Notes under the pieces: model-generated
Seen by the model: the letters and a program-made list of their open reading frames with translations, nothing else
Database searches by the model: none
What the model was told of the DNA's origin: nothing
Position numbers and translations under genes: made by a program
Assembly: GCA_020630675.1 (NCBI GenBank)
Contig: JAHDIR010000003.1
Span: forward strand, 1-64,000
DNA length: 64,000 nucleotides
Direction: 5' to 3'
Origin: Bdellovibrionales bacterium
GTDB lineage: Bacteria; Bdellovibrionota; Bdellovibrionia; Bdellovibrionales; UBA1609
In this document: positions 91 to 27,112 of the stretch, one piece after another
Position numbering within the stretch: position 1 is the first letter of the stretch
How the letters are laid out: every line of letters begins with the position of its first letter

Positions 91-627
91 ATGAAAGGAC
101 TTATATTCACTGAACTTTTATCTATGATGGAAACTACTTTTGGAGAAGATTTTACAGAAGAACTTATTGATGGGTTAGATCTACAATCGGGAGCCGCCTA
201 TACTTCCGTCGGAAACTATGATTACAACGAAGCCCTAACCATTGTTACTAAACTTTCTGAGAAGTCTGGAATGCCAGTCAACGCCTTAGTCAAAGCCTTT
301 GGTAAGCATTTACTCAAAGCTTTTTACAAATTTCATCCAGAATACTTCAATAAAACTTCAGCTTTAGATTTTTTAGGTTCCGTTGATAACTTTATTCACG
401 TTGAGGTCAAAAAACTAAACCCTGAAACTGAGCTTCCTAAACTAAATTTTAAAATTATTGATGATAAAGTCACTAAAATTGAGTACTCATCAACAAAACC
501 TTTTGCAGATCTTGCTGAAGGGCTCATTGAAGAAACTTTTGAGCACTATAACGAGAGCTTTACAATTAGCTCTGAGGGCGATGATCCTTTTCAAAGAACC
601 TTTGTATTAACTAGACAGGTGGCATGA
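91..627 (+). CDS. H-NOX (heme NO/O2-binding) domain protein
   Basis: Starts MKGLIF; contains 'SVDNFIHVEVKKLNPETELP' (proximal-His region) and 'YSSTK' at the YxSxR position; ATGA overlap with downstream kinase. Confidence 0.9.
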   Translation: MKGLIFTELLSMMETTFGEDFTEELIDGLDLQSGAAYTSVGNYDYNEALTIVTKLSEKSGMPVNALVKAFGKHLLKAFYKFHPEYFNKTSALDFLGSVDNFIHVEVKKLNPETELPKLNFKIIDDKVTKIEYSSTKPFADLAEGLIEETFEHYNESFTISSEGDDPFQRTFVLTRQVA

Positions 628-1967
628 CCAAAAATAAAAACCTCCTCTTAAAAATAGAACGAATTAAACGGGCTAAAAAAGAAGCTGAAGACCTTCTTGA
701 GGTCAAAAGTAGAGAACTATATATTCTCAACCGTTCATTAGAGGAACAGGTCCAGCAAAGAGTTAAAGAGTTAGAACAAGCAAAAAACGAAGCTATTGAT
801 TTAAAAAATCAAGCGATTGAGGCCAACAAAGCCAAATCAATATTTTTAGCTAAAATGAGCCATGAAATAAGAACTCCAATCAATGGTATTTTAGGCATGA
901 CTCAAATACTCAATGACACCCCCTTGAGTGAAGAACAAAAAAAACATCTGGACATCATTCTTAAATCTTCGCAATCTTTACTTTATCTTGTAAACGACAT
1001 ACTCGACTTCTCTAAAATAGAAGCCGGTCATACTTCAATTGAGAATATCCCTTTTGATGTCGAACTTTTATGTTTGGAAATTATAGATATTTTCAAGGCT
1101 AGTACTCAAAACTCAAACGTAAAGATTCAATTTGATATTAAAAATCAAAAAAAAGGTTTTAATATTATTAGTGATCCTGGAAAATTTAAACAAATACTCT
1201 TTAATTTGATTGGCAATGCTGTGAAGTTTACTAAGAAGGGCCATGTAAGTTTAGTGCTTAATTTTTTAAAAAATGAGTCCGTAGAGCTCGTGGTAAAGGA
1301 CTCTGGAATTGGAATTAGCCCTGAACGAATAAATAGCATATTTGATCAATTTGAACAGGCCGAAACATCCACTAATCGCGTTTACGGCGGATCTGGCCTA
1401 GGATTAGCCATCACAAAATCTTTGTCTGAAATGCTTGGTGGAAAAATTAATGTAAAAAGCGTACTTCACCAAGGGACTACTTTTACTGTGACAATTCCTG
1501 CGAAAATGACCAAAAAAGTTATTAAACATAAAAAAGATGAAATCACTAACGAAATTGATGTGAACGAAAAGTTTGGAACAGGAAAACATATTTTGTTAGT
1601 TGAAGACAATCCGATCAACCAAGTTGTGGCAAAAGCTATTTTGAGTCGCAACGGATTTGACATCACTGGTGTGGTCAACGGTGAACTTGCGGTGAAAGCC
1701 CTGCAAGAGAAATCTTTTGATTTGGTACTGATGGACTGCCAAATGCCTGTACTTGATGGCTTTGAAGCCACAAAGAAAATAAGGCAAGAATTAAATTTAT
1801 CGGAACTTCCAATTATTGCTCTCACCGCCGGAGCGATCGAAGGCACAGAGCAAAAATGCTTAGACACCGGCATGAACGCCTTTTTAACTAAACCCATAAT
1901 TGAGCAAGACTTATTAAAATGTCTTAAAAAATTTCTTAAAAAAAGCTCTTTCAAAAAAATTGCTTAG
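624..1967 (+). CDS. Hybrid histidine kinase (coiled coil-HisKA-HATPase-REC), no obvious sensor domain
   Basis: '[14 protein letters not shown]' H-box, 'GGSGLGLAITKSL' G-box, '[16 protein letters not shown]' REC; overlaps H-NOX stop. Confidence 0.93.
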   Translation: MTKNKNLLLKIERIKRAKKEAEDLLEVKSRELYILNRSLEEQVQQRVKELEQAKNEAIDLKNQAIEANKAKSIFLAKMSHEIRTPINGILGMTQILNDTPLSEEQKKHLDIILKSSQSLLYLVNDILDFSKIEAGHTSIENIPFDVELLCLEIIDIFKASTQNSNVKIQFDIKNQKKGFNIISDPGKFKQILFNLIGNAVKFTKKGHVSLVLNFLKNESVELVVKDSGIGISPERINSIFDQFEQAETSTNRVYGGSGLGLAITKSLSEMLGGKINVKSVLHQGTTFTVTIPAKMTKKVIKHKKDEITNEIDVNEKFGTGKHILLVEDNPINQVVAKAILSRNGFDITGVVNGELAVKALQEKSFDLVLMDCQMPVLDGFEATKKIRQELNLSELPIIALTAGAIEGTEQKCLDTGMNAFLTKPIIEQDLLKCLKKFLKKSSFKKIA

Positions 1968-1976
1968 TTACAAAAA

Positions 1977-2678
1977 TTAATAACTTGAGTAAGTTCTTTC
2001 GCTTCGCAAATAAAAGCGAATTTTTTCTTTGTCTTCTTCACCTATTCCGTCAAACTTAAGCTTTGTATAGTAATCTTTTCCTACCTTTAAAAAAGATGAA
2101 ACAACAAATTGTAAATGAGAAATTTCAATATGACTTAACAAGGACGAGTTAAGTTTAACAAACTGACTTTCCTCAAAATAAACTTGTGATTTTACGGTCA
2201 TGGTTTGCTCTCCAAGACTAACAATTTCAATTTGATTCTCAGTGACGGCAATGGCATGCCCCATATCAGCTCCACCATTTAATGGAACTTCTTCCCAATT
2301 TTCATTAACATCTTGAAATAAAGTTTTAATTTTATTTTTAAGTATATCTGGAGAAATGGGTTTAACAATAAACTCACTCACACCTAATTTTAAAACTCTC
2401 TTAATATCAAAAACACCACTTTTAGCACTAAGAACAATAACGGGAGTTTCTTTAAGACCGGCTTGAGCCTTGATTCTTGTTATCAAGTCAAATCCGCCCA
2501 TCTTAGGCATCATAAGGTCAACAACAAACAGGTCGTATTGCTTTTTTGACAATCGATCTAAGGCTTCAAAACCATCTTTAGCGGTTTCCACCTCTAAACC
2601 AGCACCTTCTAAGTGAAACTTTGCCAAAGTGAGATCGATACTACTATCATCTACTAAAAGTGTTCTTATTTTTTCCAT
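1977..2678 (-). CDS. Response regulator: REC plus C-terminal PilZ-like domain
   Basis: 'LLVDDSSIDLTLAKFHL', 'LFVVDLMMPKMGG', 'FIVKPIS'; start moved to ATG at 2678, which has a GGAGG SD upstream; C-terminus lacks the canonical RxxxR. Confidence 0.8.
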   Translation of the reverse strand: MEKIRTLLVDDSSIDLTLAKFHLEGAGLEVETAKDGFEALDRLSKKQYDLFVVDLMMPKMGGFDLITRIKAQAGLKETPVIVLSAKSGVFDIKRVLKLGVSEFIVKPISPDILKNKIKTLFQDVNENWEEVPLNGGADMGHAIAVTENQIEIVSLGEQTMTVKSQVYFEESQFVKLNSSLLSHIEISHLQFVVSSFLKVGKDYYTKLKFDGIGEEDKEKIRFYLRSERTYSSY

Positions 2679-2901
2679 GACTTCCTCCATGTACATACTA
2701 CTTTCAAGTCAATTTAATTAATATTAACAAAACCTAATCTGTTTATATAATTGTATAAATTTATTCCTAAATGACCATTCAAATATGAGAATTTTATTAT
2801 AATCTTCATTTGATACAAAAAAAAGGAAATTTAGCCCTAAACGTTTTATATTTTATGACGATATGACTTTAGTAGACTTGTAAACCTTAGGAGAGTTAAA
2901 G

Positions 2902-3261
2902 ATGAGTAGCGCGATAGATAAAGAAGCCTTGCAGCAGCTTAAAGAGCTTTCAGATACTGTGCCAGGAGATAACCTTCTTAAAAATTTAATAGATCTGTTT
3001 AATGTTGAAACACCAAAGCGTATTCAAGAGATTAAAAGAGCTTTCGAAGCGAAAGACTTTCCCAATTTAACACTTGCAGCTCACTCTCTTAAGTCAGGCT
3101 CTGCCTACTTAGGTGCCATGAAGCTATCTGAAATATCTAAAACCATTGAACACAGTTCTACAAACAATGAAATTCCGCCAGAAATGGATAAATTAATTGA
3201 AGGACTTGAGAAAGAATATACAGAAGCCAGTCAATACTTAAACACTCAGGTTGCCGCCTAG
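2902..3261 (+). CDS. Stand-alone Hpt phosphotransfer protein
   Basis: 'LAAHSLKSGSAYLGA' Hpt motif, 119 aa. Confidence 0.88.
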   Translation: MSSAIDKEALQQLKELSDTVPGDNLLKNLIDLFNVETPKRIQEIKRAFEAKDFPNLTLAAHSLKSGSAYLGAMKLSEISKTIEHSSTNNEIPPEMDKLIEGLEKEYTEASQYLNTQVAA

Positions 3262-3269
3262 GAGAAATT

Positions 3270-3965
3270 ATGAACATAGCCAACTATAGTATACTTGTTG
3301 TTGAGGACACTGCTGAGTATGAACTTTTAATAAAAGCCTCTATTGGAGAAAGCCCAAGATACAAGTATGCAAGAAATGTCAAAGAAGCCAAGGCACTTCT
3401 AGCAGAAAATAAATTTGATCTCGTCATATTAGATATAATCCTTCCCGATGGAAGTGGGTACGACATACTTATGCAACTCACTCAGAGTAACGGCTCTTTG
3501 CAAGTTCCAACAATTATTACCAGTGGTAAAGGTGAAACCTCCGATAAAGTGATGGGTTTTAAATCTGGAGCTTTAGACTATATTGTAAAGCCATTTAACC
3601 CTATCGAATTTAGGGCACGAATTGAAAATAAACTTAATTTTGTGTCACAAATTGGAAAATCGTCCAATATCACTTCTACAGGAAACTTACAGTTAGACGC
3701 TGCCTGCTTAAAAACTCTTATTGATAACAACGAAATTGATCTATCCCCTCTTGAGTTTAAGTTACTCAAATTTTTTACTGAATCTGTGGACCAGGTTTTT
3801 TCTAGAGATCAACTCTTAGGAAGAGTTTGGGGTGAAAACACATATGTATTAGACAGAACTGTCGATTCAACGATTGCTGGGTTAAGAAAAAAAACAGACT
3901 CCTGGAATTATAAAATTAGATCAGTGTATGGAATGGGGTACAAATTAGAAAAAAAAGCAGCATAA
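3270..3965 (+). CDS. OmpR/PhoB-type response regulator (REC + winged helix)
   Basis: REC with 'LVILDIILPDGSG' and 'YIVKPF'; C-terminal 'LLGRVWGENTYVLDRTVDSTIAGLRKK...VYGMGYKL'. Confidence 0.93.
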   Translation: MNIANYSILVVEDTAEYELLIKASIGESPRYKYARNVKEAKALLAENKFDLVILDIILPDGSGYDILMQLTQSNGSLQVPTIITSGKGETSDKVMGFKSGALDYIVKPFNPIEFRARIENKLNFVSQIGKSSNITSTGNLQLDAACLKTLIDNNEIDLSPLEFKLLKFFTESVDQVFSRDQLLGRVWGENTYVLDRTVDSTIAGLRKKTDSWNYKIRSVYGMGYKLEKKAA

Positions 3966-4064: not shown

Positions 4065-5435
4065 GTGATTCCAGTAATAATGTCCGGCGGAAATGGAGAG
4101 AGACTTTGGCCCTTTTCAAGACAGAATATGCCCAAACAATTTGGTAGCTTTTTAAAAAAACCACTACTACAAAAGTCATTAGAACGTTTTAAAAGATACA
4201 GTCACTCCCCCATTGTTGTGACTGTTCAGTCTCAAAAAAATATCATCAAAAATATGGATTATATGAAGGGAATCGAGGCCCTGTACGAGCCTTGTGGAAA
4301 AAACACAGCACCGGCTATAGCACTACTATGTCGAAAGTTAGAACTTGAAGGACTGACTAATGAAGTGGTTGGAGTATTTTCAGCTGATCACCATATTAAA
4401 AATGAATTTAGCTTTCATAAGGCCGTTACTTGTGCTGAAGAACAAGCTAAAGCCGGTTCTTTAGTCACATTAGGTGTCGCCCCTGATCATCCGGCGACAG
4501 GGTTTGGATATATAGAACTATCAAAAAATGAACAGTACCAACCTCAGAAGGTCTTATCTTTTAAAGAAAAACCATCAAAAGAAGTGGCCGAAAAATATTT
4601 AGCGCAAGGAAATTATGTATGGAATGCCGGAATTTTTATTTTTAAAGTTTCCAGTATGATAGAGCTATTTAAGCAACATATGCCAGAACTTTGGCAGGCG
4701 TTTTCTAAGCTGGATCAAGAAATGAGTCAGTTAGAAGAAATCTACAACCAAGTTCAATCTGTTAGTATTGACTATGGAATTCTAGAGCATGTGACTAATT
4801 TGCATTGTGTCCCCTGTGACATTGGTTGGATGGATCTTGGTTCATGGGATGAGATTGCTAAACTAGACAAAGAAGAACTTATTGACTCAAGTTCGCATAT
4901 TGAAACGGTTCGTGCAGAGAATAACTTTGTTTTTTCACATAAAAAGAAAACGCATACTTTGATTGATGTTGAAAACTTAATTGTTGTAGATACAGAAGAT
5001 GCCCTTCTTATTGCTAAGAAAGGGAGCACCCAAAGTGTTAAGAATGTCGTTAACCAATTAAAAGAAAAGAAAAACGAAACAGCAACAAAACACCAAGGAG
5101 AATGCCGACCTTGGGGTAAATATGAATCTCTTTTAGAAGAAGACAATTTTAAACTCAAAAAAATAACTGTTCTTCCTGGGGAAAGACTTTCATATCAAGC
5201 ACACAACAAACGGAGTGAGCATTGGATTCTAGTCAGTGGTCAGGCTGAATTTACACTAGATGATCAGTCACGGGTATTAAATGCTGGCGAACACGCTCAT
5301 ATACCAAAAGAGTCAAAACATAGAATTAAAAATATAGGGACTGTGCCCCTTATTTTTGTTGAGGTTCAACTGGGCTCTTACTTTGGAGAAGATGATATTA
5401 TTAGATACAGCGATGATTACGGGAGAGCCGCATAA
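4065..5435 (+). CDS. manC: Mannose-1-phosphate guanylyltransferase / mannose-6-phosphate isomerase (bifunctional)
   Basis: 'PVIMSGGNGERLWPFSR', 'FKEKPSKEVAEKY', C-terminal cupin 'GECRPWGKYESL...LPGERLSYQAHNKRSEHWILVSG'; GTG start. Confidence 0.95.
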   Translation: MIPVIMSGGNGERLWPFSRQNMPKQFGSFLKKPLLQKSLERFKRYSHSPIVVTVQSQKNIIKNMDYMKGIEALYEPCGKNTAPAIALLCRKLELEGLTNEVVGVFSADHHIKNEFSFHKAVTCAEEQAKAGSLVTLGVAPDHPATGFGYIELSKNEQYQPQKVLSFKEKPSKEVAEKYLAQGNYVWNAGIFIFKVSSMIELFKQHMPELWQAFSKLDQEMSQLEEIYNQVQSVSIDYGILEHVTNLHCVPCDIGWMDLGSWDEIAKLDKEELIDSSSHIETVRAENNFVFSHKKKTHTLIDVENLIVVDTEDALLIAKKGSTQSVKNVVNQLKEKKNETATKHQGECRPWGKYESLLEEDNFKLKKITVLPGERLSYQAHNKRSEHWILVSGQAEFTLDDQSRVLNAGEHAHIPKESKHRIKNIGTVPLIFVEVQLGSYFGEDDIIRYSDDYGRAA

Positions 5436-5544: not shown

Positions 5545-6309
5545 ATGAACATTAAAGAAAGCCCTATTGATACGATGAATTGTTTTGAAGAAATTAGAGA
5601 AGCTGCTGGAGACGACCCAAAACTTTTAAAAGAAATATTAGAAGTTTTTATAAAATCGTCCAGAAATGACCTCAACAGACTTTATAATGCTTTAAATGAT
5701 CGTGATGCCTCTGAATGTAGAAAGGTTTCACATAAGCTTAGATCGACTTATGGATATTTTAGTAAATCCGGTGTTCAAGAGGTTATGGCCTCTATTGAAG
5801 AAAACATGTCATCGGATAAAAATTTTCATAACATGGAGCTAGTTCTGTCACAACTCTACCCTTTATTAAAAAAAATTGATGAAGATGTCGATCACTTTTT
5901 GTATCACCAAGAAGTACAACTGAGTAAAAATATTTTAATTATCGAAGATGACGAGTTGATTGCTAAAGTTTTAAGATCAAAACTAGAAAACGAAAACTAT
6001 GCTGTTGATCATGCCGCAAATGGGCTGGATGGGTTAGACCTCATGACCCAACGAAAATACGAGGTTGTAATTACTGACGTTAATATGCCTTTTGTTTCAG
6101 GACTTGAAGTGGTCAACTTTGTGAAAAACAAACTTGTATACAACACAAAACTAGTAGTGGTTTCGGCGTCAAAAATAAACTCTGAAATTGAAAATGCTAT
6201 GGATATGAGTGTTGACCGGTTTTTATCAAAACCCTTAAACCCTAAGGATGTTTTTGAGCTAATTAATGAACTGACGGAAAACAATGAAACTTTAAAGAAG
6301 GCAGCATAA
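5545..6309 (+). CDS. Hpt-REC two-component protein
   Basis: N-terminal 'CRKVSHKLRSTYGYF' Hpt-like; C-terminal REC 'ILIIEDDELIAKVLRSKL', 'VVITDVNMPFVSG', 'FLSKPLN'. Confidence 0.85.
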   Translation: MNIKESPIDTMNCFEEIREAAGDDPKLLKEILEVFIKSSRNDLNRLYNALNDRDASECRKVSHKLRSTYGYFSKSGVQEVMASIEENMSSDKNFHNMELVLSQLYPLLKKIDEDVDHFLYHQEVQLSKNILIIEDDELIAKVLRSKLENENYAVDHAANGLDGLDLMTQRKYEVVITDVNMPFVSGLEVVNFVKNKLVYNTKLVVVSASKINSEIENAMDMSVDRFLSKPLNPKDVFELINELTENNETLKKAA

Positions 6310-6397: not shown

Positions 6398-6556
6398 ATG
6401 ACAATCAAAAGTAATCAATCCTCATTGGATACCCTATTCCTGTACCCAACTAAAATTACCAAAAAATTACCATATTTATCTAGAATTAAGACCAATGTTT
6501 TAGCTTATCCTAATAGAGCAGAACAACTCAAACCAAGGAACGTTAGATATGAGTGA
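6398..6556 (+). CDS. Small ORF (52 aa), unknown; overlaps start of downstream GT gene
   Basis: ATG at 6398 reading MTIKSNQSSLDTLFLYPTKITKKL...NVRYE*, 8-nt overlap with 6549 ATG; weak SD. Confidence 0.35.
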   Translation: MTIKSNQSSLDTLFLYPTKITKKLPYLSRIKTNVLAYPNRAEQLKPRNVRYE

Positions 6557-7673
6557 TCAACAAAAAAGAATTGGAATCTCTTCTAAAAATACGGCTCAAC
6601 TTCTCAAAAGCCTAGAGACATCACTTAATATTTTTTATAAATTTGAAGAAGTTAAAGATGGTGTTGACTATGACCTTGTTATTATTGAAAGCCAAAACCC
6701 TTTTGAGGAGTTGATGTGGTTAAAAAACAGAAACCTCTTAAAAGAAAGAACTCCTTGCTTACTTATCAGTAACGATAAAGCTATTCATTCTAGACAGTTA
6801 TTGACTGAAACTCAGCATTCAGGAGCAATTTCTATATTAAGAAATTATTATGGTGACTATACTGGGGTGAATGATAAAATTCGAACAATTCTAAAACCAA
6901 ACCTACCTGTCAAAAAATCAAAATATTTATTTGTTATACCTATTTTTAATGAAGAAAACCGACTAAAGAATGTTTTCGATTTCTTAAATATTTTAATAAA
7001 AATTATTTCTACTCAAAACCTCGATGCTAGTATTCGTTTTGTAAATGATGGAAGTGATGATAATTCTCCTGAATTGATAAATAAACTTTTACCAAAAATT
7101 CAAAAAGAAATGGGAAATATTCCCATCGATCAATTTTTAGAACTTGAAAACTTAGTTGAAAATACAAAAAAAGCAGGTATTTACCAAGCCGGATTTAAGA
7201 ATAGTGATGCCAACTACTTTTTTATTTTAGATTCTGACAACTCATTTTTTGAAGAAGATATTGTTAAAGCCATAAGTATTATTGAAGACGGATATTATGA
7301 CGTTATCCAAGCAACCAAAGACTTAACCTCAGAAAACCGCCCCTTAATTCGTAGGGCTTTAAGTTTTTGCAAACGTCTTTGTACTTACTTCTTTTTACCC
7401 CCAGGAATTGTTGACTCACAAACTGGCTTTAAATTAATAAATGCCACAGTTGCCAAGCATTCCATGCCCTACATAAGAAATGAATATGGATTTGCGGCTG
7501 ACCTGCAACTGTTAAATATATGTAAACAAATGAAGTTTCGAGCCCTACAACTCCCCGTTAAATGCATAGACAGAGACGGATCACATGTTGACCCTATTGC
7601 TGACACCAAAAGATATATATCTTCATTACTAAAAATAGCTCTCAAAAAAGAGGTTTATCATGAGTTCAAATAA
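6549..7673 (+). CDS. Family 2 glycosyltransferase with N-terminal receiver-like (pseudo-REC) domain
   Basis: GT2: 'YLFVIPIFNEENRLKNVF', 'VNDGSDDNSPEL', 'FILDSDNSFFEEDI'; ~110 aa N-terminal alpha/beta region with REC-like alternation. Confidence 0.85.
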   Translation: MSDQQKRIGISSKNTAQLLKSLETSLNIFYKFEEVKDGVDYDLVIIESQNPFEELMWLKNRNLLKERTPCLLISNDKAIHSRQLLTETQHSGAISILRNYYGDYTGVNDKIRTILKPNLPVKKSKYLFVIPIFNEENRLKNVFDFLNILIKIISTQNLDASIRFVNDGSDDNSPELINKLLPKIQKEMGNIPIDQFLELENLVENTKKAGIYQAGFKNSDANYFFILDSDNSFFEEDIVKAISIIEDGYYDVIQATKDLTSENRPLIRRALSFCKRLCTYFFLPPGIVDSQTGFKLINATVAKHSMPYIRNEYGFAADLQLLNICKQMKFRALQLPVKCIDRDGSHVDPIADTKRYISSLLKIALKKEVYHEFK

Positions 7674-8070
7674 AAAAAAGGTGTTGTTCATAGATGATAA
7701 TCCAATGAGCATTGAAATATATAAAGCTAGCCTCAAAGGTTCATCTACCTTTGAGTGTATATTTTGTAATACTCCAGAAAAAGCTATGAAAGTTATTTGT
7801 GAACAAAAAATTAGTGGAATTATCACAGATCTTGTTATGCCAAATATTAACGGTATTGATTTACTCAACGCCATCAATGAACACCAAAATCAATGTTTTA
7901 AGATTTTAATTACTGGAAGCACTAGCCTTGATACGATAGTTCACATTGTTAATAAAGTGGGTATTGATCATATATTAATCAAGCCCATTCAAGTTGAGTT
8001 GAGTGAGTTAAAAAACATTATTAATAAATATATTGAGCTGCAAAGCCCGGAGGTTGCTATTGCGTCTTAA
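7660..8070 (+). CDS. Single-domain response regulator
   Basis: 'VLFIDDNPMSIEIYK', 'GIITDLVMPNINGIDLL', 'ILITGST', 'HILIKPIQ'. Confidence 0.9.
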   Translation: MSSNKKKVLFIDDNPMSIEIYKASLKGSSTFECIFCNTPEKAMKVICEQKISGIITDLVMPNINGIDLLNAINEHQNQCFKILITGSTSLDTIVHIVNKVGIDHILIKPIQVELSELKNIINKYIELQSPEVAIAS

Positions 8071-9850
8071 CCACCTTGTTTTACTTCTTGGATTATTCTA
8101 TTTTTTTGCATTAGAAGCTGGAGCTCAAAATTTATTTGCAGGCTCTTGTCATAAACAAAACATATCAAACATTAAAGATATCAGTAAAGTTGATAAGGTC
8201 GCGTATGCTCGTGAGCTATTTTTAGCTGGTGAATACCAAGCATCTATTGATATTCTGGAGTCTGTCATAGCATCTCAAGAATTTAATGAAAGTATTTATG
8301 GCTTAACCATTGCCGTTCACAATAGTGTAAAAAATAAAAAAAGAAGCATTGAGCTTTTAGAAGTGGTTATTAAAAATAAACCAGAGGCTCATTGGGCTAA
8401 ACTTGAACTATATAAACTGGGAAAAATTTCAAAAGAAGAAATCTTGAAATCAACTTGCCTGCTCGCAAGTAATAGCTCATCTCAATTGCTAGAGTGTGCA
8501 AAGCATGTGCTAAAAGAAGGCCCTGAGTTTGAAACTTTCTTAAAAACAGCCATTAAAAAATCTAAGAAAGAAACAGACCCCTATTCGCGCATTATTGCCA
8601 GTAAATCTTACGAACAATTAAATATGCCCAAAATATCTCTTAAAGTTTTAAATAAAATTAAAAAAGGTGCCAACCACTACGAATCTGCTCTTAGGGAAAA
8701 GGTACGTATTTATTCTGATTTAGGTGAATTTAATAGGGCCAATAAAGAGCTAAAAAAATTATTAGAATTTAACAATAAAAGCCCTGTGAATCATTTAATA
8801 GCTCTGGACCATTATAAAAAATATCAAATGCCACAAAAAGCACTCACTCACTTTTCTGCGGCCTCAAATTGTTTATCTTATAAATCACGAGACCTCATTC
8901 ACCGCACAGGTTATATATCTGAAGTTTTAGGGGCACCATTTTTTGAGAACCAAACAATTCAATTTTCATTTTCACGGTTCAGAAGTTATTTTCGACCTAA
9001 TGAACTTTTACAAAATAAGGTTAGAGGCCTCGACTTTAATTTATATGACTTTAACAATTCCCTCACTCGATTAAGCTGGAATAATAGCTTAAGTGAAAAA
9101 ACTTCCATTAGTACTGAAGTTGGAATGAACCAAAAAGGGACTGGACAAAATGAAATCGATTATTGGGTGAGTGCAGGCCTTAAAAGACGATCGGCCAGTG
9201 AGAACTATGTTTCTAACAGTGGAATTTCTGCAGCTTATATTCCAGTTTACCGAATAGCTGCTAAAAAATTCACCAGAAACTCTTATAAACTTTCTGGAAC
9301 CTACAATTTATTCCCTCACAAAAGTTCTACAAGTTATCATTTAGATGCCAGTTATGGTTTTGAACGTATTTTAAGAGATAATGCTTTCAATCAATACTCT
9401 GAGGTAACATTAGCTGTGAATAAAAAGTTTTGGAATGAAAAAGCAGGACTTAATGCTGGTTTAACAAACAAAAACGTATTTGGTGATGAAGTTGACACTC
9501 AATTTAGGTTTTTTGCAGGTGGAGAATACAATTTTGATTGTGGTATAAATATTAAATTATTTAATGAAGTTTTTTATATACCTGATGCTGGGGAATATAC
9601 GGTAAACACTACTATCAGCCAAATCACTCCCCTTACAGATACGTCAAGCCTAAAGCTTTCTGTATCTAACGAGCAAGATATTGTAAATCGTTATTTTCAA
9701 CAAATAAGTATGTCAGCTACTTTAGAAAAAAATATTTATCTTAATAATTTTAAAGCCAAAACTTCTATTGAGGCTATGCATATAACTGATAAAGGGCAAA
9801 TACAAGACGAAAACCTGTTCATAAATTTTAAAATTGGAGTTCCTTTTTGA
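8060..9850 (+). CDS. TPR-containing outer-membrane beta-barrel protein (putative EPS export)
   Basis: Signal peptide 'LRLNHLVLLLGLFYFFALEAGAQ', helical repeats, C-terminal beta-strands ending in F; likely TTG start at 8060 with 'ggagg' upstream rather than 8033. Confidence 0.72.
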   Translation: MRLNHLVLLLGLFYFFALEAGAQNLFAGSCHKQNISNIKDISKVDKVAYARELFLAGEYQASIDILESVIASQEFNESIYGLTIAVHNSVKNKKRSIELLEVVIKNKPEAHWAKLELYKLGKISKEEILKSTCLLASNSSSQLLECAKHVLKEGPEFETFLKTAIKKSKKETDPYSRIIASKSYEQLNMPKISLKVLNKIKKGANHYESALREKVRIYSDLGEFNRANKELKKLLEFNNKSPVNHLIALDHYKKYQMPQKALTHFSAASNCLSYKSRDLIHRTGYISEVLGAPFFENQTIQFSFSRFRSYFRPNELLQNKVRGLDFNLYDFNNSLTRLSWNNSLSEKTSISTEVGMNQKGTGQNEIDYWVSAGLKRRSASENYVSNSGISAAYIPVYRIAAKKFTRNSYKLSGTYNLFPHKSSTSYHLDASYGFERILRDNAFNQYSEVTLAVNKKFWNEKAGLNAGLTNKNVFGDEVDTQFRFFAGGEYNFDCGINIKLFNEVFYIPDAGEYTVNTTISQITPLTDTSSLKLSVSNEQDIVNRYFQQISMSATLEKNIYLNNFKAKTSIEAMHITDKGQIQDENLFINFKIGVPF

Positions 9851-11016
9851 AAAAAAGTAAACTCTTAATTCTTCTCGATATCCCTCTATTTTTACTGAAC
9901 TATGTTTACCTGATTATCTGTGCCAGACTATTAATAAAAGATGACTTCGGGCTTCTTAACAGCTATCTCGCCACGTTATCAATAGCTTTTGTCATTGGAG
10001 TTTCTCTACAAGTTAAGGCCGCCAACTCAAGCAAACCATTTGTTAGTAAAAAAAATATATTGTTTTTTTCTTTGCTGACAGGCCTTTTGCCCCTAATTAT
10101 TGCATTTATATTTTCCTTCTCTATGGTTCATACCTTACTCATATTAAGCGTTTGTTTTCTTCATCCCTTTTCTAGCCTTACTAGAGGCTTATTTATCAAA
10201 AATCAAAAATATCTATCTTATTATGCCAGTTTATATATTGAACTTGTTCCTAAGCTCCTGATGGTTATTTTATTTTTATGGCTCAGTATTAAAAAATTTG
10301 AATATGTTATTTTTTCTTTAATTGTTGGCCAGGCATTGGCTACTGTATACGGCTTAATTTTTACTAAAGTTAATTTTATTAAAAATAAAAAAAATAGTTT
10401 AAAAATGATTTTTCAGGCTAAAGAAATTATGATCAATCAACTCGCTTTTTTTCTTATCATTGGTATTGATATTTTTTTAGTCAATAAATATTTTACATCA
10501 CAAGCAGGAGAAATTTCTCTGGCTATCCGATTTAGCCAAGTACCATTACTTGTATTTTTCACATTTCTACAATTTGATATTCAAAAAATTTCTAAGCTAA
10601 AATCAATGGGACAAGTTGCGAAAGCCTACGCTCCTGTTATTTTAGGCCTTTTTGTTCCAACCTACCTTGGGCTGCAAATGCTGGGAACGTTTATAGTCAA
10701 TCTTTTTTTTGGAGAAGAGTATGCAACTAGCCTAACTTATACTCCCTTTTACTTAGTTTATTTTTCAATCATTGCTATAGCCTATGCTTACAGTTTTATG
10801 AAGTCACTACAAGGGAAATTCAAAGAGAGCCTAATAATGATTACTTTTTCTATTCTTCTTTTACCTCTTTATCATTACTTTCAAGACCAATTTATAGGCG
10901 CTCAAACTTATCAAGCTTACTTAGGATTGGTATTATTATTTTCTTTTATTTTGTATCATTTTTTCTCTCACTCCTCTAAACCAACTACGTTATCTAGCCC
11001 TCATCACTTGGAGTGA
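9847..11016 (+). CDS. Polysaccharide flippase-like multi-TM membrane protein
   Basis: ~12 hydrophobic helices, Wzx/PelG-like; TTG start overlapping the upstream TGA (TTGA). Confidence 0.7.
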   Translation: MKKSKLLILLDIPLFLLNYVYLIICARLLIKDDFGLLNSYLATLSIAFVIGVSLQVKAANSSKPFVSKKNILFFSLLTGLLPLIIAFIFSFSMVHTLLILSVCFLHPFSSLTRGLFIKNQKYLSYYASLYIELVPKLLMVILFLWLSIKKFEYVIFSLIVGQALATVYGLIFTKVNFIKNKKNSLKMIFQAKEIMINQLAFFLIIGIDIFLVNKYFTSQAGEISLAIRFSQVPLLVFFTFLQFDIQKISKLKSMGQVAKAYAPVILGLFVPTYLGLQMLGTFIVNLFFGEEYATSLTYTPFYLVYFSIIAIAYAYSFMKSLQGKFKESLIMITFSILLLPLYHYFQDQFIGAQTYQAYLGLVLLFSFILYHFFSHSSKPTTLSSPHHLE

Positions 11017-17739: not shown

Positions 17740-19713
17740 ATGAAAAGTTTATTATGGTTACAAATATGTATCTCGGCTATTTTTGTTTTAAGTTGTTCTC
17801 CTAGCCCAGACAATATGACGGAGAGTTCTCCAGATGGAGCTCCTAGCCTTGAGGAAGAGTTTAACTATCAAACCATTCAAGCTGTGAATGTCGTTGTTTA
17901 CTCAGATTATGCTGGTGTTGAGTTTACAGTTAAAGATGAAGTCAGTAAAAAGTTAGCAGTGATTAAAACAGACAATGCTGGTTTTGTTTCTTTAAAGATT
18001 TCGGTTCCTAGAACAAACGAAGGCTTATTTTTAGTGAGTAGCTATATAGGTATTCCCAATGAAATATATGTACCTATTGAAAATAATAAAGCAGAAATTA
18101 ATCTCATGCAAAGTGCTCAACTACCTAATAATGGTGCCTTGCAAAAAATGATGTTTAGTGAAAATAATAGTTTTTCATCTTATAATCAAAGCGATGGCTT
18201 TCCTGCTTTTGGCACTATGGGTAATTGGGACCGTTATGGTGTGCCTGAATACCTAACAAACCGTGAGCCAATCTCTAGCGATATTATCAAAACACTTAAC
18301 GAAATTTTACCTGAAAAACAACCTGTTCCTGATTATAGACCACAATACCTAATGGAAAATTTAGACACAGACTTACATTTATTAAAAGATGGTGAAGTGT
18401 TTATTACATTTGTTCATGAAGGTGCTGGCTACCGCAATACTTTAGGTTACTACACTTACAAAACCGCAGACGGACCTCCAAGCTCATTGAGCGACAGTGA
18501 AATTAAAATTGTATTTCCTAACGTAAGTTATAGATACAGTGGTGGTGGCTTAACCTCTGGAGACACAGTGAGCTTAGGAGAGCACACAGCCGGAACGTCT
18601 ATTGGTTGGGTTTTAAAATCGAATGCTTTCAGTACCCGATTTAAATCCGTATCTAATGGTTTTAATACTTTCTTTTCAGAAAACTCACTTAACAGAGATG
18701 AAGACCCACACAAACAACATTTCGTACAAATCAACTTAGGTGATTTGATTGTTATTGGTATTGAAGATTTACTAAGACCTGGTGGTGATAACGACTTTAA
18801 CGATGCTGTATTTACTGTAAGGTCAACTCCTGAAGATGCTATTGATCGCAGTGGTTTAGTTGTTGATACCGACCCAAATTACACTGAGCCAACCGCTGAT
18901 CCAGATGACATTGAACTTCAGGAAGCTCCTTTATTTGATATCTCAGGATACCAGTTTTTCCCAGGTAAGGACGAGTTTGGAACTTTAGCCTACGAAGATT
19001 TATGGCCTCACAAAGGTGACTATGACTTTAATGACTTAGTTGTAGATTATAACGTCATCGAAGCTTTAGATAAAGATAATAAAATTGTACAAATTCAATT
19101 ATCTCTAAGAATTGTTGGAATCTTAGCGAGTATGCATAACGGCTTTGGAGTTCAACTAGGAATTGCCCCTGAACTCGTGGCCTCAGTGTCTGGTGCTCGT
19201 CATACGAAAGGTTATACAAAAATTAACTCCAACGGAACAGAAAAAAGACAAGAGCGAGCTGTGATCATTGCTTTCGAAGATGCTCAAGAACATTACAATG
19301 CAGCCTCTCCGGACGACTCTGAGCTCATCGTAATTTCAATTAACTTAACTCGTGGAGTTTCTCGAACTGAACTTGGATTTGCCCCTTACAACCCATTTAT
19401 CATGAGTAATGGTGAAAGAGGTCGTGAGATTCACCTTCCTGGTTACCAGGCGACTAACCTTGTTCATATTCCTTACTTTGGTAGCGTCGATGATGATAGT
19501 GTTATTGGAACAAACTATATGTACAAAACTAACGATGATCTTCCTTGGGCCATTCATTTGCCGGAAAAATTCTCTTACCCTTATGACAGTGTAAGAATAA
19601 ACAGCGCCTACAAATTATTTGATGCTTGGGTGGCCAGTGATGGGTTTAGTCACTCAGATTGGTACACAGATAAAACTGGATATCGAATTAGCGACATGAT
19701 CAAGCGGAAATAG
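17740..19713 (+). CDS. LruC/DUF4114 domain lipoprotein
   Basis: Lipobox 'FVLSCSPS'; 'IGIEDLLRPGGDNDFNDAVFTV' and 'YEDLWPHKGDYDFNDLVVDYNV'. Confidence 0.82.
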   Translation: MKSLLWLQICISAIFVLSCSPSPDNMTESSPDGAPSLEEEFNYQTIQAVNVVVYSDYAGVEFTVKDEVSKKLAVIKTDNAGFVSLKISVPRTNEGLFLVSSYIGIPNEIYVPIENNKAEINLMQSAQLPNNGALQKMMFSENNSFSSYNQSDGFPAFGTMGNWDRYGVPEYLTNREPISSDIIKTLNEILPEKQPVPDYRPQYLMENLDTDLHLLKDGEVFITFVHEGAGYRNTLGYYTYKTADGPPSSLSDSEIKIVFPNVSYRYSGGGLTSGDTVSLGEHTAGTSIGWVLKSNAFSTRFKSVSNGFNTFFSENSLNRDEDPHKQHFVQINLGDLIVIGIEDLLRPGGDNDFNDAVFTVRSTPEDAIDRSGLVVDTDPNYTEPTADPDDIELQEAPLFDISGYQFFPGKDEFGTLAYEDLWPHKGDYDFNDLVVDYNVIEALDKDNKIVQIQLSLRIVGILASMHNGFGVQLGIAPELVASVSGARHTKGYTKINSNGTEKRQERAVIIAFEDAQEHYNAASPDDSELIVISINLTRGVSRTELGFAPYNPFIMSNGERGREIHLPGYQATNLVHIPYFGSVDDDSVIGTNYMYKTNDDLPWAIHLPEKFSYPYDSVRINSAYKLFDAWVASDGFSHSDWYTDKTGYRISDMIKRK

Positions 19714-19958: not shown

Positions 19959-21110
19959 ATGAAAAGTCAAATTAACTACTACAGCGAAGCCAATGGATGG
20001 AAATACTTGGAGCAAGAAAAAATAGACGCTAATATTGTACTTTACTTTATTTCTCCGGATGTAAAAGACGTTGATAAAGTACTTCAAGAAATCAAAAGCC
20101 AATACCCAAACGCGCAAACGGTGGGACTGACCACCGGCGGAGAAATCTTTAATGAAGAAGTTTCCCACTCGACGGTCTCAATTGCTGCGATTCAATTAGA
20201 AAACACTCCTTTTCAAATAGTCTCATTACCCATTTCAAATATAACTGAATCCGAAGAGATTGGAGAAAAACTTGGTCGTTTAATAAATAAAGACGATTTA
20301 AATAGTGTTATGTTATTTTCTGACGGCCTAAAAACCAACGGCACCGGCCTAATAAAAGGACTCACCTCAGTGCTAGGCCATGATGTTAAAATTACGGGAG
20401 GCTTAGCTGGTGACAACGAAAAATTTGAAAGAACAAAAGTGGGATTAAACAAAAGCCCTGAAGAAGGACAAACTGTTGCCATCGCTTATTACGGAAACCA
20501 TTTGGTTTATGGCCATGGTAGCGCTGGGGGCTGGGATAATTTTGGCCCACAAAGGCTCATTACCCGTGCTGAGGGCAATGTACTTTATACTCTAGATAAC
20601 AAACCAGCATTAGAACTTTACAAGCGCTACCTCACGGAAGAACAAGTCAAAGACCTCCCAGGAAGTGGTTTACTATACCCTTTATCCATACAATCTAGCG
20701 ACAGTTTAAAAAATGACACCGTACGTACCATTGTAGGTATTGATGAAAAAGAACAATCACTCATTTTTGCAGGAGATATCCCTCAAGGCCATATGGCTAG
20801 ACTTATGATGGGTAGCTTTGACCGATTAATTGATGGAGCCTCAACGGCAGCTGAACAAGCCTGCGCGCTGTCTGATAGTATTGAAGGTGACTCTTTAACC
20901 CTAATGATAAGTTGCATTGGACGTCGTCTCTTAATGGGACAGCAAATATCTGGTGAAGCTGAGGCTGTCTATGACACCCTAAAAAAAGGAAGTAAAGCCA
21001 TTGGTTTTTACTCTTACGGTGAAATTGCTCCCAACCCCTCTAACAACCTTTGCCAGTTGCAAAATCAAACAATGACGATCACTCACTTTGGTGAAAAAAA
21101 GGCTGCTTAA
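19959..21110 (+). CDS. FIST (FIST_N/FIST_C) protein, NosP-like
   Basis: '[14 protein letters not shown]', '[43 protein letters not shown]', '[10 protein letters not shown]', '[10 protein letters not shown]'; stop overlaps kinase start. Confidence 0.88.
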
Positions 21111-22870
21111 TGACTTCTACAAAAAAAGATATTGACTTACATAAAACACTACAGCGTCAAATACGTCGTTTAAATTTGCCAGACTCCCCGGAAGTGGAAA
21201 AATTACTTCAACTTGTAAACACGACTTACCAAGAAAATGATCGTAGCCGAAGGTTACTAGAAACATCTATGCAATTAATGTCAGATGAAGTTTTAGATTT
21301 AAATAACAAAATTAAAAATGAAGCCAATTTAAAAATTGAAAAAGCAGAACGTAGATCTAGTTTAGCATTAGAGGCCAACAGTGATTTTTTATGGGATTGG
21401 TCCTTAAAAGATAAATCTGTTTATATTAATAATGTTCTTAAAGAGCGTTTAGGTTTTAAAAATAACCAGTTATCAGATAGAAGAAGCCAATGGATTCATA
21501 CCATATACAAAGAAGATCAAGAAAAAATATTTTTAGCTATGCAAAGCTATATTAAAAAAGAAACGCCAACTTTTACTGTAGAGCACCGACTTGTTAATTC
21601 TGACGGCTCAATTATGTGGGCTTTAAACCGCGGACAGGTTGTTGAGTGGGGAGATAAAGGTCAGCCACTAAGAATGATCGGGACATTAATAGATATTACG
21701 CAAAATAAAAAAAATGAACTTGAATTAATTGAGTCTAAGAAATTAGCCGAAAAAGCTAACCAAGCCAAGTCTGAGTTTTTAGCAAATATGAGTCACGAAA
21801 TACGAACTCCCATGAATGGAATTATTGGTATGACTCAAATTTTTGATAGCTCTCAACTCGATTCAAAACAAAAAGAGCATTTAGCTGCTATAAAAAAATC
21901 ATCAGAAATATTGTTAGGCTTAATTAATAATATTCTTGATTTATCAAAAATTGAAGCTGGCTGTATGGATATTGAAAATATTGATTTTGACCTCATTGAG
22001 ACTTGCACTGATGTGACTAAAATTTTAAGAGCCAACGCTGAGAAAAAAGGAGTCACTATTGACTTTAATTATGATGATAATATGCCTTCCTATATAAATG
22101 GTGATGATGGTCGCTTAAAGCAAATTTTATTTAACATTATTGGTAACTCCATTAAATTTACTGAGAAAGGTAAAATTACATTTGATTTGACGAAATCAAA
22201 AAATAACTACCAATTTAAAATATCCGACACGGGAATAGGAATAAAACCTGAACGACTTAAGCATATTTTTAATAAGTTTGAACAGGAAGACAGCTCTACC
22301 AATAGAAAATTTGGAGGAACAGGTCTAGGCCTTTCTATCACTAAAAAAATTATTGAACTTTTAGAAGGCACCATTGAAGTAACGAGTAAAGTTGGTCAAG
22401 GAACTTGCTTTCAGTTTACCCTCCCCTTAAAAGAAGCCAAAGCTCAAAAAGAAAAAGCAGAAGTAATAATTAAGCATGAAGACTTTAACCTTTCCGGCAA
22501 ACATATTCTTTTAGTCGAAGACAATTTCATCAACAGCACTGTTGTCACTGCTTTATTGAAAAGAAACAATATCAAAGTGACCGTCGCAGGCAATGGACAA
22601 GAGGCTCTTGATACAATTAATGAAATTCCATTTGATTTAGTACTGATGGACTGTCAAATGCCAATAATGGACGGCTATGAAGCCACACAAGAAATACGCG
22701 CTACAGAGAACAACGAAGCTATTAGTAAAGTTCCCATTATTGCTCTGACAGCAAGTGCTATTAAAGGCGATCGTGAAAAGTGCTTTAACATTGGAATGAA
22801 CGATTACTTAACTAAACCTATCAAAGAAAACGATCTCATTGTGTGCATTAATAAATGGATTCATAATTAA
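21110..22870 (+). CDS. PAS-containing hybrid histidine kinase
   Basis: PAS '[24 protein letters not shown]...[13 protein letters not shown]'; '[14 protein letters not shown]'; REC '[16 protein letters not shown]'. Confidence 0.95.
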
Positions 22871-22934: not shown

Positions 22935-24503
22935 CTAGCTTGCGATTTTAGTCAGGTTATCTTTAAGGTCATCAAATGAAATTGGTTTTGTTAAAAAGCC
23001 ATCCATTCCAAAGCTGAAGCACTTTTCCATGGTTGATTTAAAGGCATTTGCTGTTAAAGCAAATATAGGACCCGCATGAAGACCACGAGATCGAATTTCT
23101 TTTGTGGCATCAAAACCGTCCATTTCAGGCATTTGGCAGTCCATAAGAATAATATCATAAGTGTTTTTTGAAGCCATTTCTACAGCGATTTTTCCATTGC
23201 CAGCAATTTCAAATGTACAACCAATTTTATTTAACATGGAGCCTGCTACTTTTTGATTAATCAAATTGTCTTCAACCAATAATATTTTGAGGTGATCTAC
23301 AGGTTTTAAAATTTTAAACTGCTTTTGAATAGTATTTTTAAATATACTCACTGTTTTAGCTTCTTTTGCTTCGACCAAAGGGATTGTTAGTCGAAAGGTA
23401 GAGCCCTTTGTTTCTACACTTTCCACGACAAGCTGCCCTTTCATGACTTCAGCAAACTTTCGACTTATGGTTAAACCTAACCCAGTCCCCCCATACTTTC
23501 TCGCATCTGATACATCGGCCTGAGTAAAGCTTTCGAAAACTTGTGACAGTTTATCTTTTGGAATTCCTATGCCAGTATCTTCTACTTCAAATATTACTTG
23601 CTGCGCCAACGTATCTACCTTCGTTCTTAAGGTGACGGAGCCTCGGGGTGTAAATTTTAGAGCATTTCCAATTAAGTTAATTATAATTTGCTTCACTTTT
23701 TGTAAATCGGCCGACAGGTATTTAGGCAGCTCATCACTAAGGCTTAAATTTAGTTCAAGTCCACGCTTTTGAGCCTGTGCTAAAAACATACTTTGAATTT
23801 CCAACAAAACTTCTCTAGGATCAAAACTTGTAATATCTAGTTCTAATTTCCCTGATTCAATTTTTGATATCTCTAAAATTTCATTGATAATTGTTAATAA
23901 GTATTTTCCAGAATGTTGAATAATTTCTAATTTTTCATTGGCAACACTTTCGTGCTTGGACTGTAACAGTAAGTCTACCGTTCCTAAGATTCCATTTAAC
24001 GGAGTTCTTATTTCATGAGACATATTTGCAATGAATTGACTTTTTGCTAAGTTGGCGTTTTTTGCTTCTTCCATTGAGTTTTGAAAGGCAATATTTTGAT
24101 CACAAGAAAATAGGCTTATAGATATTTTTTTTTGCACTGGCCTCATCATTTTAACAAAACGATCATTTAAAAAAACATTGCTTTTCCTAACGATAAAAAC
24201 CCCTTGATCCCTCACATTAAAAACATGTATAAAACTATTTTGATACTTTTCCTGATAATGATCTTTGACTTTAAGAAGATCTACAAGCTTATCTTTTTTT
24301 TCATTATAAAATTGAGATATAATTTCATTTTTTTTCGGATAAGAAAATTCGCACTCATTTTTATTATTAAAAAATAATATAGAGGTTCCATTTACTTTTT
24401 TGCAAACAACAGTTAGGCATTTGCGTAGCATTTCAATACGCTCTAAGCTCAACCCTATTGACATTGAAATGTCATAAAGAACTTCTATATCATTTTGATT
24501 CAA
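22935..24503 (-). CDS. Hybrid histidine kinase with GAF-like N-terminus
   Basis: '[14 protein letters not shown]', '[13 protein letters not shown]', REC '[16 protein letters not shown]'. Confidence 0.94.
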
Positions 24504-25630
24504 GCGGCTTTTCCTATTTTTCCAACAACACAGGTTTTATTAAAAAATTCTAAATAACTATTTCCATTGTTGGCAATTTCTCCTAAGCACAAAGCCCCTG
24601 CCAGGACAGATTGGTCGGCTTTAATCGCTTGAAGTTCATTTTTAAAGTTGTCTCCTAAAAACAAGGCTCTTGAAATACAATCCATCACCAAAACAGGATT
24701 TGATTTATTTCCAGTCACTAAAGACATGGCATTTTGTGTCGCTGTAGATGCCGCATTTATGAGAGACAGCTCTGAACCCATAAGAATATTTACATATTCA
24801 TTTTCTGGGACATCCCCCACGCAAACCAAAGATTGGTCTTCTAGTAAAATAGGGTCTCTCACCACAACTTCAGAGTCTAAGCGATTGATTCCAAACGGAA
24901 AAGCCTTCGCCACTTCAAAGAAATTTTCTGAACTTATTTTTTGACCCGATTTTTTTTCCACAATTTTTTTGTAAACATCAAAGGCAGGCTCCCAATCTAA
25001 AGAAATAATTTTATTTTTTTCAGATTCTGTGACACGAAAGGGGCCAGCAACTTTTTCCCAGCCGTGCGACACCCCCACCCCTACTTCTTGAGTGGTCTCT
25101 ACTAAAAGAGCACAATCTTGAAATATTCCTTCATTGGTAATAATACATGGTGAAGGTTTAAAGGACAGTGAGCCAGCCCCTCCTCCCATATAATTATAGT
25201 CTGATCCAAGGTTGCTATAAACGGCTTCTATAAATGGTCCAATCTCAGAAGACAACCCATCAACATAAACAAATATAGACTTTGTTTTAGATAGTGATTT
25301 CTCAATTTTTTGAAGCTTAGAATCGAGGTCTCCGACAGACTTTGATAAGTCGTCTACTCTATGAGTCGTTGTCTCAAATGGCAACCCGATAACAAGAGTA
25401 CCTGTTTCTAAAGTTTGATCATTCATCACTAAACGCGGAAAAAAACCACCAAATAAGTTTTTATCAAAACTTTTTAAGTGAGAGCTTAAATCTTCTTTGA
25501 GGTGAGAGCTTTCATCAGCTACCATCAGTAAAATAGACTTCACCTCTTCTTTATCATTTAAAGTTTTTATATTTTTAAGTAAGACATTGAGGTCGCCTTG
25601 AGTTTCGGCTAAAACAAATTCATTAGACAT
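24500..25630 (-). CDS. FIST-domain protein, divergent NosP-like paralogue
   Basis: '[41 protein letters not shown]', '[12 protein letters not shown]', '[12 protein letters not shown]'; ATGA overlap with kinase. Confidence 0.85.
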
Positions 25631-25834
25631 TAATTCTCCTAAGTTAGACTATGTGCTTTTATCGGGATTAACTTAGAAAAACTGATGGCTAGATTTTGAA
25701 ATTTTTCTCATATTTTTGACTCATAACGATTTTATGACAAAACTCAAGACCTTTGGTTAGTCGAGCAAAAGAGAGTACCAAGGCTTTTAAACCTCTTTTC
25801 TTAATAAGTATTTAAAACTGGTTTTTTCGTTTAC

Positions 25835-27112
25835 TTATGGAGAGCAATTAAGCCCAGTATTATCTGTAGACCCCAAAGAGTAATTAAACTGATCAAAATA
25901 AACGTACTGATCATAAGGAGAAGGAATTCCTCCACCGTAATAAACATCTAACCAAATACGATACACTTCACGAAAGGCTTCATTATTTGTAAAATTAAAA
26001 TTTGTTCGACTATAGACTTTTCTTCCTTCAAACCAAGCTTCTAAAACACCATCATTTTTTCCGGGTGTATTCATTTTTATATGCTGCTTGATCATATACC
26101 AACGATTATTGGTGGACCTAACAGCTTGGCGAAAAGAGCCTGTTGGAGACCACCACTCAGGGTCTCCATATATAGAGTTAGCGTGAGCCCCAGTATGATA
26201 AATATAATTTCCCAAAGGAATAGTCTTTTGTTCAGGTTCGTACTTACCAAAAGTCATTCGAGCAGACCAAGCATTACTCCCTGTACTTGGGTTGCCACCT
26301 TGCCCACCATTTGTTGGAGAAGAATGACCAGAAAACCCGGGTAATTTACCCGATTGCGAAATGGCGGTCCAATTATAACCAAAGCGCAAACAAAAACTCA
26401 TCCAAGCTTCTTGTGTTTTTGCAGGTAGCCTAAAATAAGACCCTGTGCCGTAATGGTCACCTTGTTTAAGCTTAACGCGAATGGAGTCCTTGTCGCCGGG
26501 CTGACTGGGCTGAAAGCCTCTATCACCACTATGGTCACCAAAGCTGACATTTTGGTCTCTATTGACTGTCCATTGATTGTTTTGAATCATTTGCCCACGA
26601 CTGGTGACTGGAGGTGGTTCAGGAGTTGGTGTTTCTGGTTTTACTTCAGCTAAAGTTTCAAAACTTTTGACATCAGAATTAATGGTCTCGCCCGCCTGAT
26701 TGGTCACCGTTACATTATAGAAATAAGTTGTTTTTGGTTCTAAATTCAAGACCGTCTGTGAGTGACTCGAAAAGCGAAAACTCTCTTCTTTTTCTAGCCT
26801 TGGTATAAGGCTTGTCGCTGTAGGGCCAATATTAATATGAGCTTTTGAGTTTTCATTGGTCACCCAAGCAATTTGTACTGAACGAATACTCTCTTCATGA
26901 TCAGGTTCAGTTGTAAAAGCAAAGCCACTTTTCATAGATGGAGGGCCTGTTTCTCCAGGGGTGTCATTACTAGGTTCGTCCAAAGGAAGTTGTGAAGGCA
27001 ACTCTAAAGAGCCTGAATCTGTATCGGTCCATTCACTAGAAAATTCGCCACCACAGTTTTGAAATAAAACAACCGTGACAAAAAGTGAAAGTATATAAGA
27101 TAGTAACTTCAT
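25835..27112 (-). CDS. Lipoprotein: FN3-like domain + PL14-like polysaccharide lyase domain
   Basis: Lipobox 'VVLFQNCGG'; 'SGKLPGFSGHSSPTNGGQGG...WSARMTFGKYEP...YIYHTGAH...WYMIKQHIKMNTPGKNDGVLEAWFEG'. Confidence 0.65.
   Translation of the reverse strand: MKLLSYILSLFVTVVLFQNCGGEFSSEWTDTDSGSLELPSQLPLDEPSNDTPGETGPPSMKSGFAFTTEPDHEESIRSVQIAWVTNENSKAHINIGPTATSLIPRLEKEESFRFSSHSQTVLNLEPKTTYFYNVTVTNQAGETINSDVKSFETLAEVKPETPTPEPPPVTSRGQMIQNNQWTVNRDQNVSFGDHSGDRGFQPSQPGDKDSIRVKLKQGDHYGTGSYFRLPAKTQEAWMSFCLRFGYNWTAISQSGKLPGFSGHSSPTNGGQGGNPSTGSNAWSARMTFGKYEPEQKTIPLGNYIYHTGAHANSIYGDPEWWSPTGSFRQAVRSTNNRWYMIKQHIKMNTPGKNDGVLEAWFEGRKVYSRTNFNFTNNEAFREVYRIWLDVYYGGGIPSPYDQYVYFDQFNYSLGSTDNTGLNCSP

Follow-up and report, generated by a model that had tools for sequence, protein, structure and literature searches.

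A 64,000-nucleotide stretch of the genome of a Bdellovibrionales bacterium (hereafter the window; bases 1-64,000 of contig JAHDIR010000003.1, our contig C60) contains, at positions 91-27,112, genes for one H-NOX and two FIST proteins with their hybrid histidine kinases (HK1, HK2 and HK3), which are interleaved with histidine phosphotransfer (Hpt) and receiver (REC) genes and with an exopolysaccharide (EPS) gene set (Table 1). We propose, with a probability of roughly 0.6, that a gas- or redox-gated multi-kinase phosphorelay encoded here controls a mannose-containing surface polysaccharide, because the homologous genes form a single run in a genome of the same genus (G157), a sensor module recurs in other genomes, polymer genes lie at its flanks, Hpt and kinase genes cluster at the locus, and a FliA-like promoter element precedes the Hpt-OmpR gene pair. 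More generally, given the apparent operon of G157, gas sensing probably controls the surface polymer.

Conservation of the locus within the genus

Conservation was assessed with maps of open reading frames (ORFs) and with tblastn, in which the proteins of the window were compared with wide regions of related genomes. In G157, the homologues are arranged as 15 consecutive ORFs on one strand, with gaps of -14 to +116 nt, that encode in this order a GT2 glycosyltransferase (GT), REC, the TPR/barrel protein, the flippase, a GT4 and a second GT2 enzyme, the membrane GT (two ORFs), ManC, FIST1, HK2, H-NOX, HK1, Hpt and REC. Since these genes form one run, the cluster is no chance neighbourhood, and the linkage between sensor-kinase, Hpt and polysaccharide genes that a preliminary description of the locus had put forward extends beyond proximity. 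The same description had considered that a synteny of H-NOX, FIST and ManC might be absent from all relatives; all three occur together in G157. This genome also keeps the 14-bp overlap of the REC and GT2 genes, and its Hpt-OmpR pair is divergent from the REC-PilZ gene, with the GT2-to-REC run beginning 224 nt further on. Homologues of the PL14 lyase and the DUF4842 protein are located approximately 7-11 kb past the OmpR gene on the contig of the cluster. Gene order differs between the window genome and G157.

In a second genome of the genus, G162, the genes for Hpt, REC, H-NOX, HK1, REC-PilZ, a further Hpt and OmpR are grouped, small contigs carry FIST1-HK2, and a homologue search of the genome returned no match to ManC or the membrane GT; a PGA_cap capsule gene flanks the OmpR gene. 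The OmpR regulator of the window shares 72% identity with that of G162 and 67% with that of G157. The Hpt-REC fusion of the window corresponds to two adjacent genes in both genomes, which is a hint that the fused Hpt and REC may work together. In the incomplete genome G291, homologues of ManC and the membrane GT were identified on small contigs. The FIST1-HK2 genes of G162 are present as near-identical copies (L071 and L072, on C26 and C187) and reflect either duplicated genes or variant strains in the assembly.

A smaller core module outside the genus

The conserved core is a smaller module consisting of Hpt, the OmpR regulator, REC-PilZ, H-NOX and a hybrid kinase. All five are encoded near one another, without FIST, in G053 and G168; in G191 the OmpR, REC-PilZ and Hpt genes adjoin H-NOX, as do those of OmpR and REC-PilZ in G124. 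The G168 module is flanked by genes for two GDP-mannose 4,6-dehydratases, epimerases and a GT4 enzyme, and the G191 module by one for a DUF4114 protein. In other families of the phylum, no H-NOX locus with the complete module was seen. H-NOX is encoded in 36 and FIST in 49 genomes of a phylum draw of 291. When the wide H-NOX loci of this draw and 35 named ones were searched for FIST, only G157 showed FIST near H-NOX. Within the set searched, FIST/H-NOX pairing therefore appears to be characteristic of this genus. At the proximal position of the G124 H-NOX protein (L083:9937-10473), Ile-His is replaced by Leu-Gln, and the protein is probably unable, by its sequence, to ligate heme in the usual way; its gene still lies beside those of OmpR and REC-PilZ.

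Clustering of relay genes

The window genome comprises 3.1 Mb (99.9% complete, 36.6% G+C), of which 25.5 kb at the locus hold two of four Hpt matches, three of five HK-REC hybrids (counted by domain co-occurrence within one open frame), seven of 38 REC matches and both FIST genes, with binomial P values of 4e-4, 5e-6, 3e-8 and 7e-5, respectively, that assume random gene placement and therefore overstate the clustering. The local Hpts are plausible relay hubs, because outside the locus the genome shows just two further Hpt matches, each associated with its own kinase domains: the first belongs to an HK/REC cluster on C104, and the second is part of a 480-aa protein that also includes a HATPase domain. 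The remaining two HK-REC hybrids are located on C73 and C59. A 1116-aa GAF-HK-REC-guanylate/adenylate cyclase fusion protein is encoded on C59 (L151:2-3349).

A FliA-like promoter element

Upstream of the Hpt-OmpR pair, an element of the type TAAA-N17-CGATAA is located at -64 in the window, -54 in G157 and -58 in G162, a relaxed pattern that was itself partly shaped by these three sequences. The Escherichia coli FliA consensus is TAAAG-N15-CCGATAA; in its unmodified form it is matched with 3, 1 and 3 mismatches of 12 in the window, G157 and G162, respectively, and 5.7% of shuffled upstream regions (n=20,000) reach three or fewer mismatches and 0.04% one or none. A spacing of 15 is the best in two of the three orthologous promoters and tied for best in the third. 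The exact relaxed pattern occurs at 16 sites genus-wide, compared with 3 for a reversed control. FliA and flagellins are present, and some flagellin promoters of the genus contain elements of the same class. In Bdellovibrio bacteriovorus, FliA has been proposed as the master regulator of the attack phase, the promoters of which follow TTAAG-N16-CCGATA with a printed spacing one base longer than that of the three sites described here (PMC3627812). The position of the FliA-like element before Hpt-OmpR suggests a putative motile-to-sessile switch.

The exact relaxed pattern also closely precedes one further Hpt gene each in G162 (L165, C256) and G291 (L155, C130), a hint of a potentially wider Hpt-FliA link in the genus. 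A search for a shared OmpR operator revealed no k-mer common to the intergenic regions above shuffles. Although AAATATGAG occurs upstream of both Hpt and FIST2, it was rejected as an operator, since with one mismatch allowed it is no more frequent in the window than expected by chance.

Sensor proteins

The HNOB match of the H-NOX protein spans model positions 1-162 of 163 (E 4e-35), and alignment with relatives places its retained proximal heme histidine at I102-H103 of an IHVEV motif. The adjacent HK1 has an N-terminal region of about 70 aa with no match to a sensor domain, followed by the sites SHEIR (from position 79) and LMDCQMP (from 369); the phospho-acceptor His and Asp sites of the relay proteins of the locus are all intact.

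FIST1 and FIST2 are about 21% identical to each other, and FIST1 has no significant relative in the PDB by sequence. As a proxy for NosP-type heme binding we used the C-terminal histidine of the LHNQT motif, which may or may not be the heme ligand; it is present in 26 of 30 aligned FIST proteins of the phylum and in each of four plasmid-borne FIST proteins examined as an outgroup. Neither FIST protein of the window has this near-invariant residue, and the earlier proposal of three NO (nitric oxide)/heme inputs is thereby weakened and now appears doubtful, as the loss weakens, and does not exclude, heme binding by FIST1 and FIST2. Two FIST-kinase pairs are indeed present at the locus as had been described, but the placement of FIST2-HK3 beside EPS genes is not conserved: its G157 counterpart lies on another contig, and both FIST matches of G162 are of the FIST1 type. 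On present data, the double FIST arrangement beside EPS genes is particular to this genome.

Output proteins

A PilZ domain was not detected by Pfam in the REC-PilZ protein of the window, and three of its seven orthologues score for PilZ (best E 0.003). A PDB search with a model of the whole protein was swamped by receiver-domain matches, and the C-terminal part was modelled alone instead (mean pLDDT, the predicted local distance difference test score, of 86); all of its top eight matches in the PDB are to PilZ proteins, with E values of 0.005 to 0.06. According to this model, the predicted C-terminal domain is a PilZ fold. The [DN]xSxxG motif is absent from all seven orthologues, in which RxxxR occurs only near the C-terminal end. 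No GGDEF, EAL or HD-GYP domain was found among the proteins of positions 91-27,112, and the four GGDEF matches of the genome are on other contigs. Given a locus devoid of these domains and a PilZ fold devoid of [DN]xSxxG, an output independent of cyclic di-GMP (c-di-GMP) would be the simplest reading. The REC-PilZ gene adjoins H-NOX or Hpt-OmpR in related genomes. The output regulator is of the OmpR type (Trans_reg_C) and not of the NtrC type, to which SypG of Vibrio fischeri belongs.

Outside the locus, the window encodes an exported subtilase (S8; positions 35385-37304, minus strand) that combines a transmembrane-like segment with a PilZ domain at its C-terminus (Pfam E 7e-18, RKHDR at 538) and is a candidate membrane protease tuned by c-di-GMP.

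Proposed mechanism and alternative explanations

In the proposed phosphorelay, H-NOX, either NO-bound or free, would set the activity of HK1, and FIST1 would set that of HK2 in response to a ligand, heme/NO or otherwise. The receiver domains of the kinases would pass phosphate via the stand-alone Hpt and the Hpt-REC protein to the OmpR regulator encoded with the Hpt, and also to the stand-alone REC and to REC-PilZ, which might influence the synthesis or export of EPS through protein contacts, independently of c-di-GMP. We infer the ligand, phosphotransfer and output steps, as well as their sign and the dependence on FliA. A more specific version is tentative and in our view rather unlikely, namely that an H-NOX-led relay of Hpt, OmpR and a c-di-GMP-independent REC-PilZ, transcribed by the attack-phase sigma factor FliA, directly controls the co-encoded EPS machinery, with NO and a non-heme FIST cue acting as a swim/attach switch in this lineage of Bdellovibrionales.

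Several observations weigh against phosphorelay control of the polysaccharide. The YxSxR heme-propionate motif of H-NOX reads YSSTK, with Lys for Arg, and Lys is also found in G162 and Arg in G157. The LHNQT histidine is replaced by Gln368 (codon CAA) in FIST1 and by Phe363 in FIST2, with Gln also occurring in one other phylum sequence and Phe in the G157 orthologue of FIST2. The FIST2-HK3 pair is not conserved at the locus, and the three mismatches of the window's FliA-like element amount to a moderate fit that about 6% of shuffles equal. Furthermore, G162 keeps the sensor module though ManC and the membrane GT were not found there, so the EPS of the locus cannot be the only output of the module.

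The last point also favours an explanation in which sensors and EPS genes became neighbours through rearrangement-prone polysaccharide islands and the H-NOX relay controls motility, predation or metabolism via OmpR, as do the differing gene order of the window genome and G157 and the movement of FIST2-HK3 into or out of the locus. We consider this explanation improbable: the apparent operon of G157 joins both sensors, their kinases, Hpt and REC with EPS enzymes, the REC/GT2 gene overlap is found in both genomes, and the G168 module is likewise flanked by polymer genes. The FIST proteins could instead sense another small ligand, such that NO enters through H-NOX only and the FIST kinases report a second cue. 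This is compatible with phosphorelay control of the polysaccharide, competes with the reading of three NO inputs, and is a serious possibility falling somewhat short of an even chance. The substitutions of the LHNQT histidine speak for it, whereas this residue may not be the NosP heme ligand, the FIST1 orthologues of G157 and G162 retain it, and FIST1 shares 42% identity with a FIST protein from Legionella anisa, a member of a genus with an established NosP (PMC11237717). Finally, H-NOX-HK1-Hpt-OmpR (ancestral) and FIST1-HK2-(Hpt-REC)-REC (of the EPS operon) might form two insulated pathways sharing no Hpt, as the occurrence of the core module without FIST in G053 and G168 and the failure to find FIST near H-NOX in the other loci searched would allow; in G157 and G162, however, the second Hpt and REC adjoin H-NOX/HK1 and not FIST-HK2, which ties both Hpts to H-NOX and renders such insulation doubtful.

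Gene content of the locus

All genes named in the preliminary description were recovered at the coordinates given there, and the coupling of each sensor gene to a kinase gene holds, with overlapping or abutting ends at 624/627, 21110/21110 and 24500/24503. The distance between the contig end and the start of the H-NOX gene is 91 bp. Additional genes encode the secreted DUF4114/DUF4842 protein and the 1427-aa membrane protein, and the flippase-like and TPR proteins have Pfam matches below the curated cut-offs. The N-terminal extension of the first GT2 enzyme (positions 6549-6932) appears receiver-like by eye; a receiver-like domain was rejected, as this likeness has no Pfam support.

Table 1. 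Features of the sensor and exopolysaccharide locus, with positions in the window
Feature	Position	Strand	Evidence
H-NOX (HNOB) sensor	91..627	+	Pfam E 4e-35; alignment
HK1, H-NOX-coupled hybrid kinase (HisKA-HATPase-REC)	624..1967	+	Pfam; 4 bp overlap with H-NOX gene
REC with degenerate PilZ-fold domain lacking the c-di-GMP motif (predicted)	1977..2696	-	Profile, orthologues, structure model
FliA (sigma-28)-like promoter element upstream of Hpt-OmpR, TAAACGTT-N11-GACGATAT	2838..2864	+	
Stand-alone Hpt, site HSLKS, His61	2902..3261	+	Pfam E 4e-13
OmpR-family response regulator (Trans_reg_C)	3270..3965	+	Pfam; 8 bp past Hpt
ManC, GDP-mannose pyrophosphorylase / phosphomannose isomerase	4065..5435	+	Pfam
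Hpt-REC fusion	5545..6309	+	Pfam
GT2 glycosyltransferase, ~125-aa N-terminal extension without family match	6549..7673	+	Pfam
Single REC domain, 14 bp overlap with GT2 gene	7660..8070	+	Pfam
TPR-like protein, candidate exporter	8033..9850	+	Weak TPR match (below cut-off); barrel by eye
Flippase-like protein (Polysacc_synt)	9847..11016	+	Pfam below cut-off
GT4 glycosyltransferase	11115..12347	+	Pfam
GT2 glycosyltransferase	12313..13215	+	Pfam
1427-aa membrane protein, possible GT-C-type polymer enzyme	13234..17517	+	Assignment by eye
Secreted DUF4114/DUF4842 protein	17740..19713	+	Pfam
FIST1 (FIST_N+FIST_C)	19959..21110	+	Pfam; Gln368 at family LHNQT His
HK2, PAS-HisKA-HATPase-REC hybrid kinase coupled to FIST1	21110..22870	+	Pfam; sites intact
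HK3, HisKA-HATPase-REC hybrid kinase coupled to FIST2	22935..24503	-	Pfam; sites intact
FIST2 (FIST_N+FIST_C), divergent	24500..25630	-	Pfam; Phe363 at family His
PL14-like polysaccharide lyase, exported	25835..27112	-	Pfam

Comparison with known systems

In the HnoX/HnoK/HnoB/HnoC/HnoD network of Shewanella, an H-NOX-controlled kinase feeds several receiver proteins. The present locus resembles this network in its H-NOX-associated kinase and its several receiver proteins, and differs in having no phosphodiesterase/HD-GYP effector and in its outputs, which are OmpR, REC and a REC-PilZ without the c-di-GMP motif. In V. fischeri, the H-NOX kinase HahK signals through the Hpt domain of SypF to the syp exopolysaccharide (PMC8738867). 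Both systems have H-NOX beside a kinase, an Hpt relay (predicted in the present case) and EPS genes, whereas the present locus contains the Hpt and output genes at the same site, an OmpR-family regulator and an added FIST-kinase pair. More than one class of NO receptor per organism, with an influence on biofilm, would be a feature shared with Vibrio cholerae (H-NOX and NosP/VpsS) and Legionella pneumophila (Hnox1, Hnox2 and NosP) (PMC8738867, PMC11237717). The Legionella receptors are, however, encoded at separate loci, and the outputs in V. cholerae and Legionella proceed via c-di-GMP or quorum sensing, in contrast to the single cluster devoid of c-di-GMP enzymes found here. NosP/NahK (NosP-NosK-NosR) systems likewise have a FIST gene adjacent to, and coupled with, that of a kinase (PMC12570481); the present locus differs from them in that both FIST proteins lack the near-invariant histidine and no GGDEF, EAL or HD-GYP response regulator is encoded in the locus. 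A FIST gene beside a kinase gene thus calls for a check of conserved residues before it is labelled a heme/NO sensor.

FIST genes at most five genes from hnox have been reported in the neighbourhood network of H-NOX group 1, for which no EPS gene set or Hpt-OmpR pair was described (PMC8738867, Figure 6), and no H-NOX study was found for this order of predatory bacteria in the literature searched. With respect to the genomes and literature that were searched, what appears new is that the sensors are physically joined to an EPS gene set and to an Hpt-OmpR/REC-PilZ module with its FliA-like promoter. If the proposal is true, the locus would physically link two classes of gas sensor, their phosphotransfer proteins and the machinery for a polysaccharide in an unusually direct way, and would offer a compact system in which to study how several kinases share Hpts and whether NO acts on biofilm without c-di-GMP.

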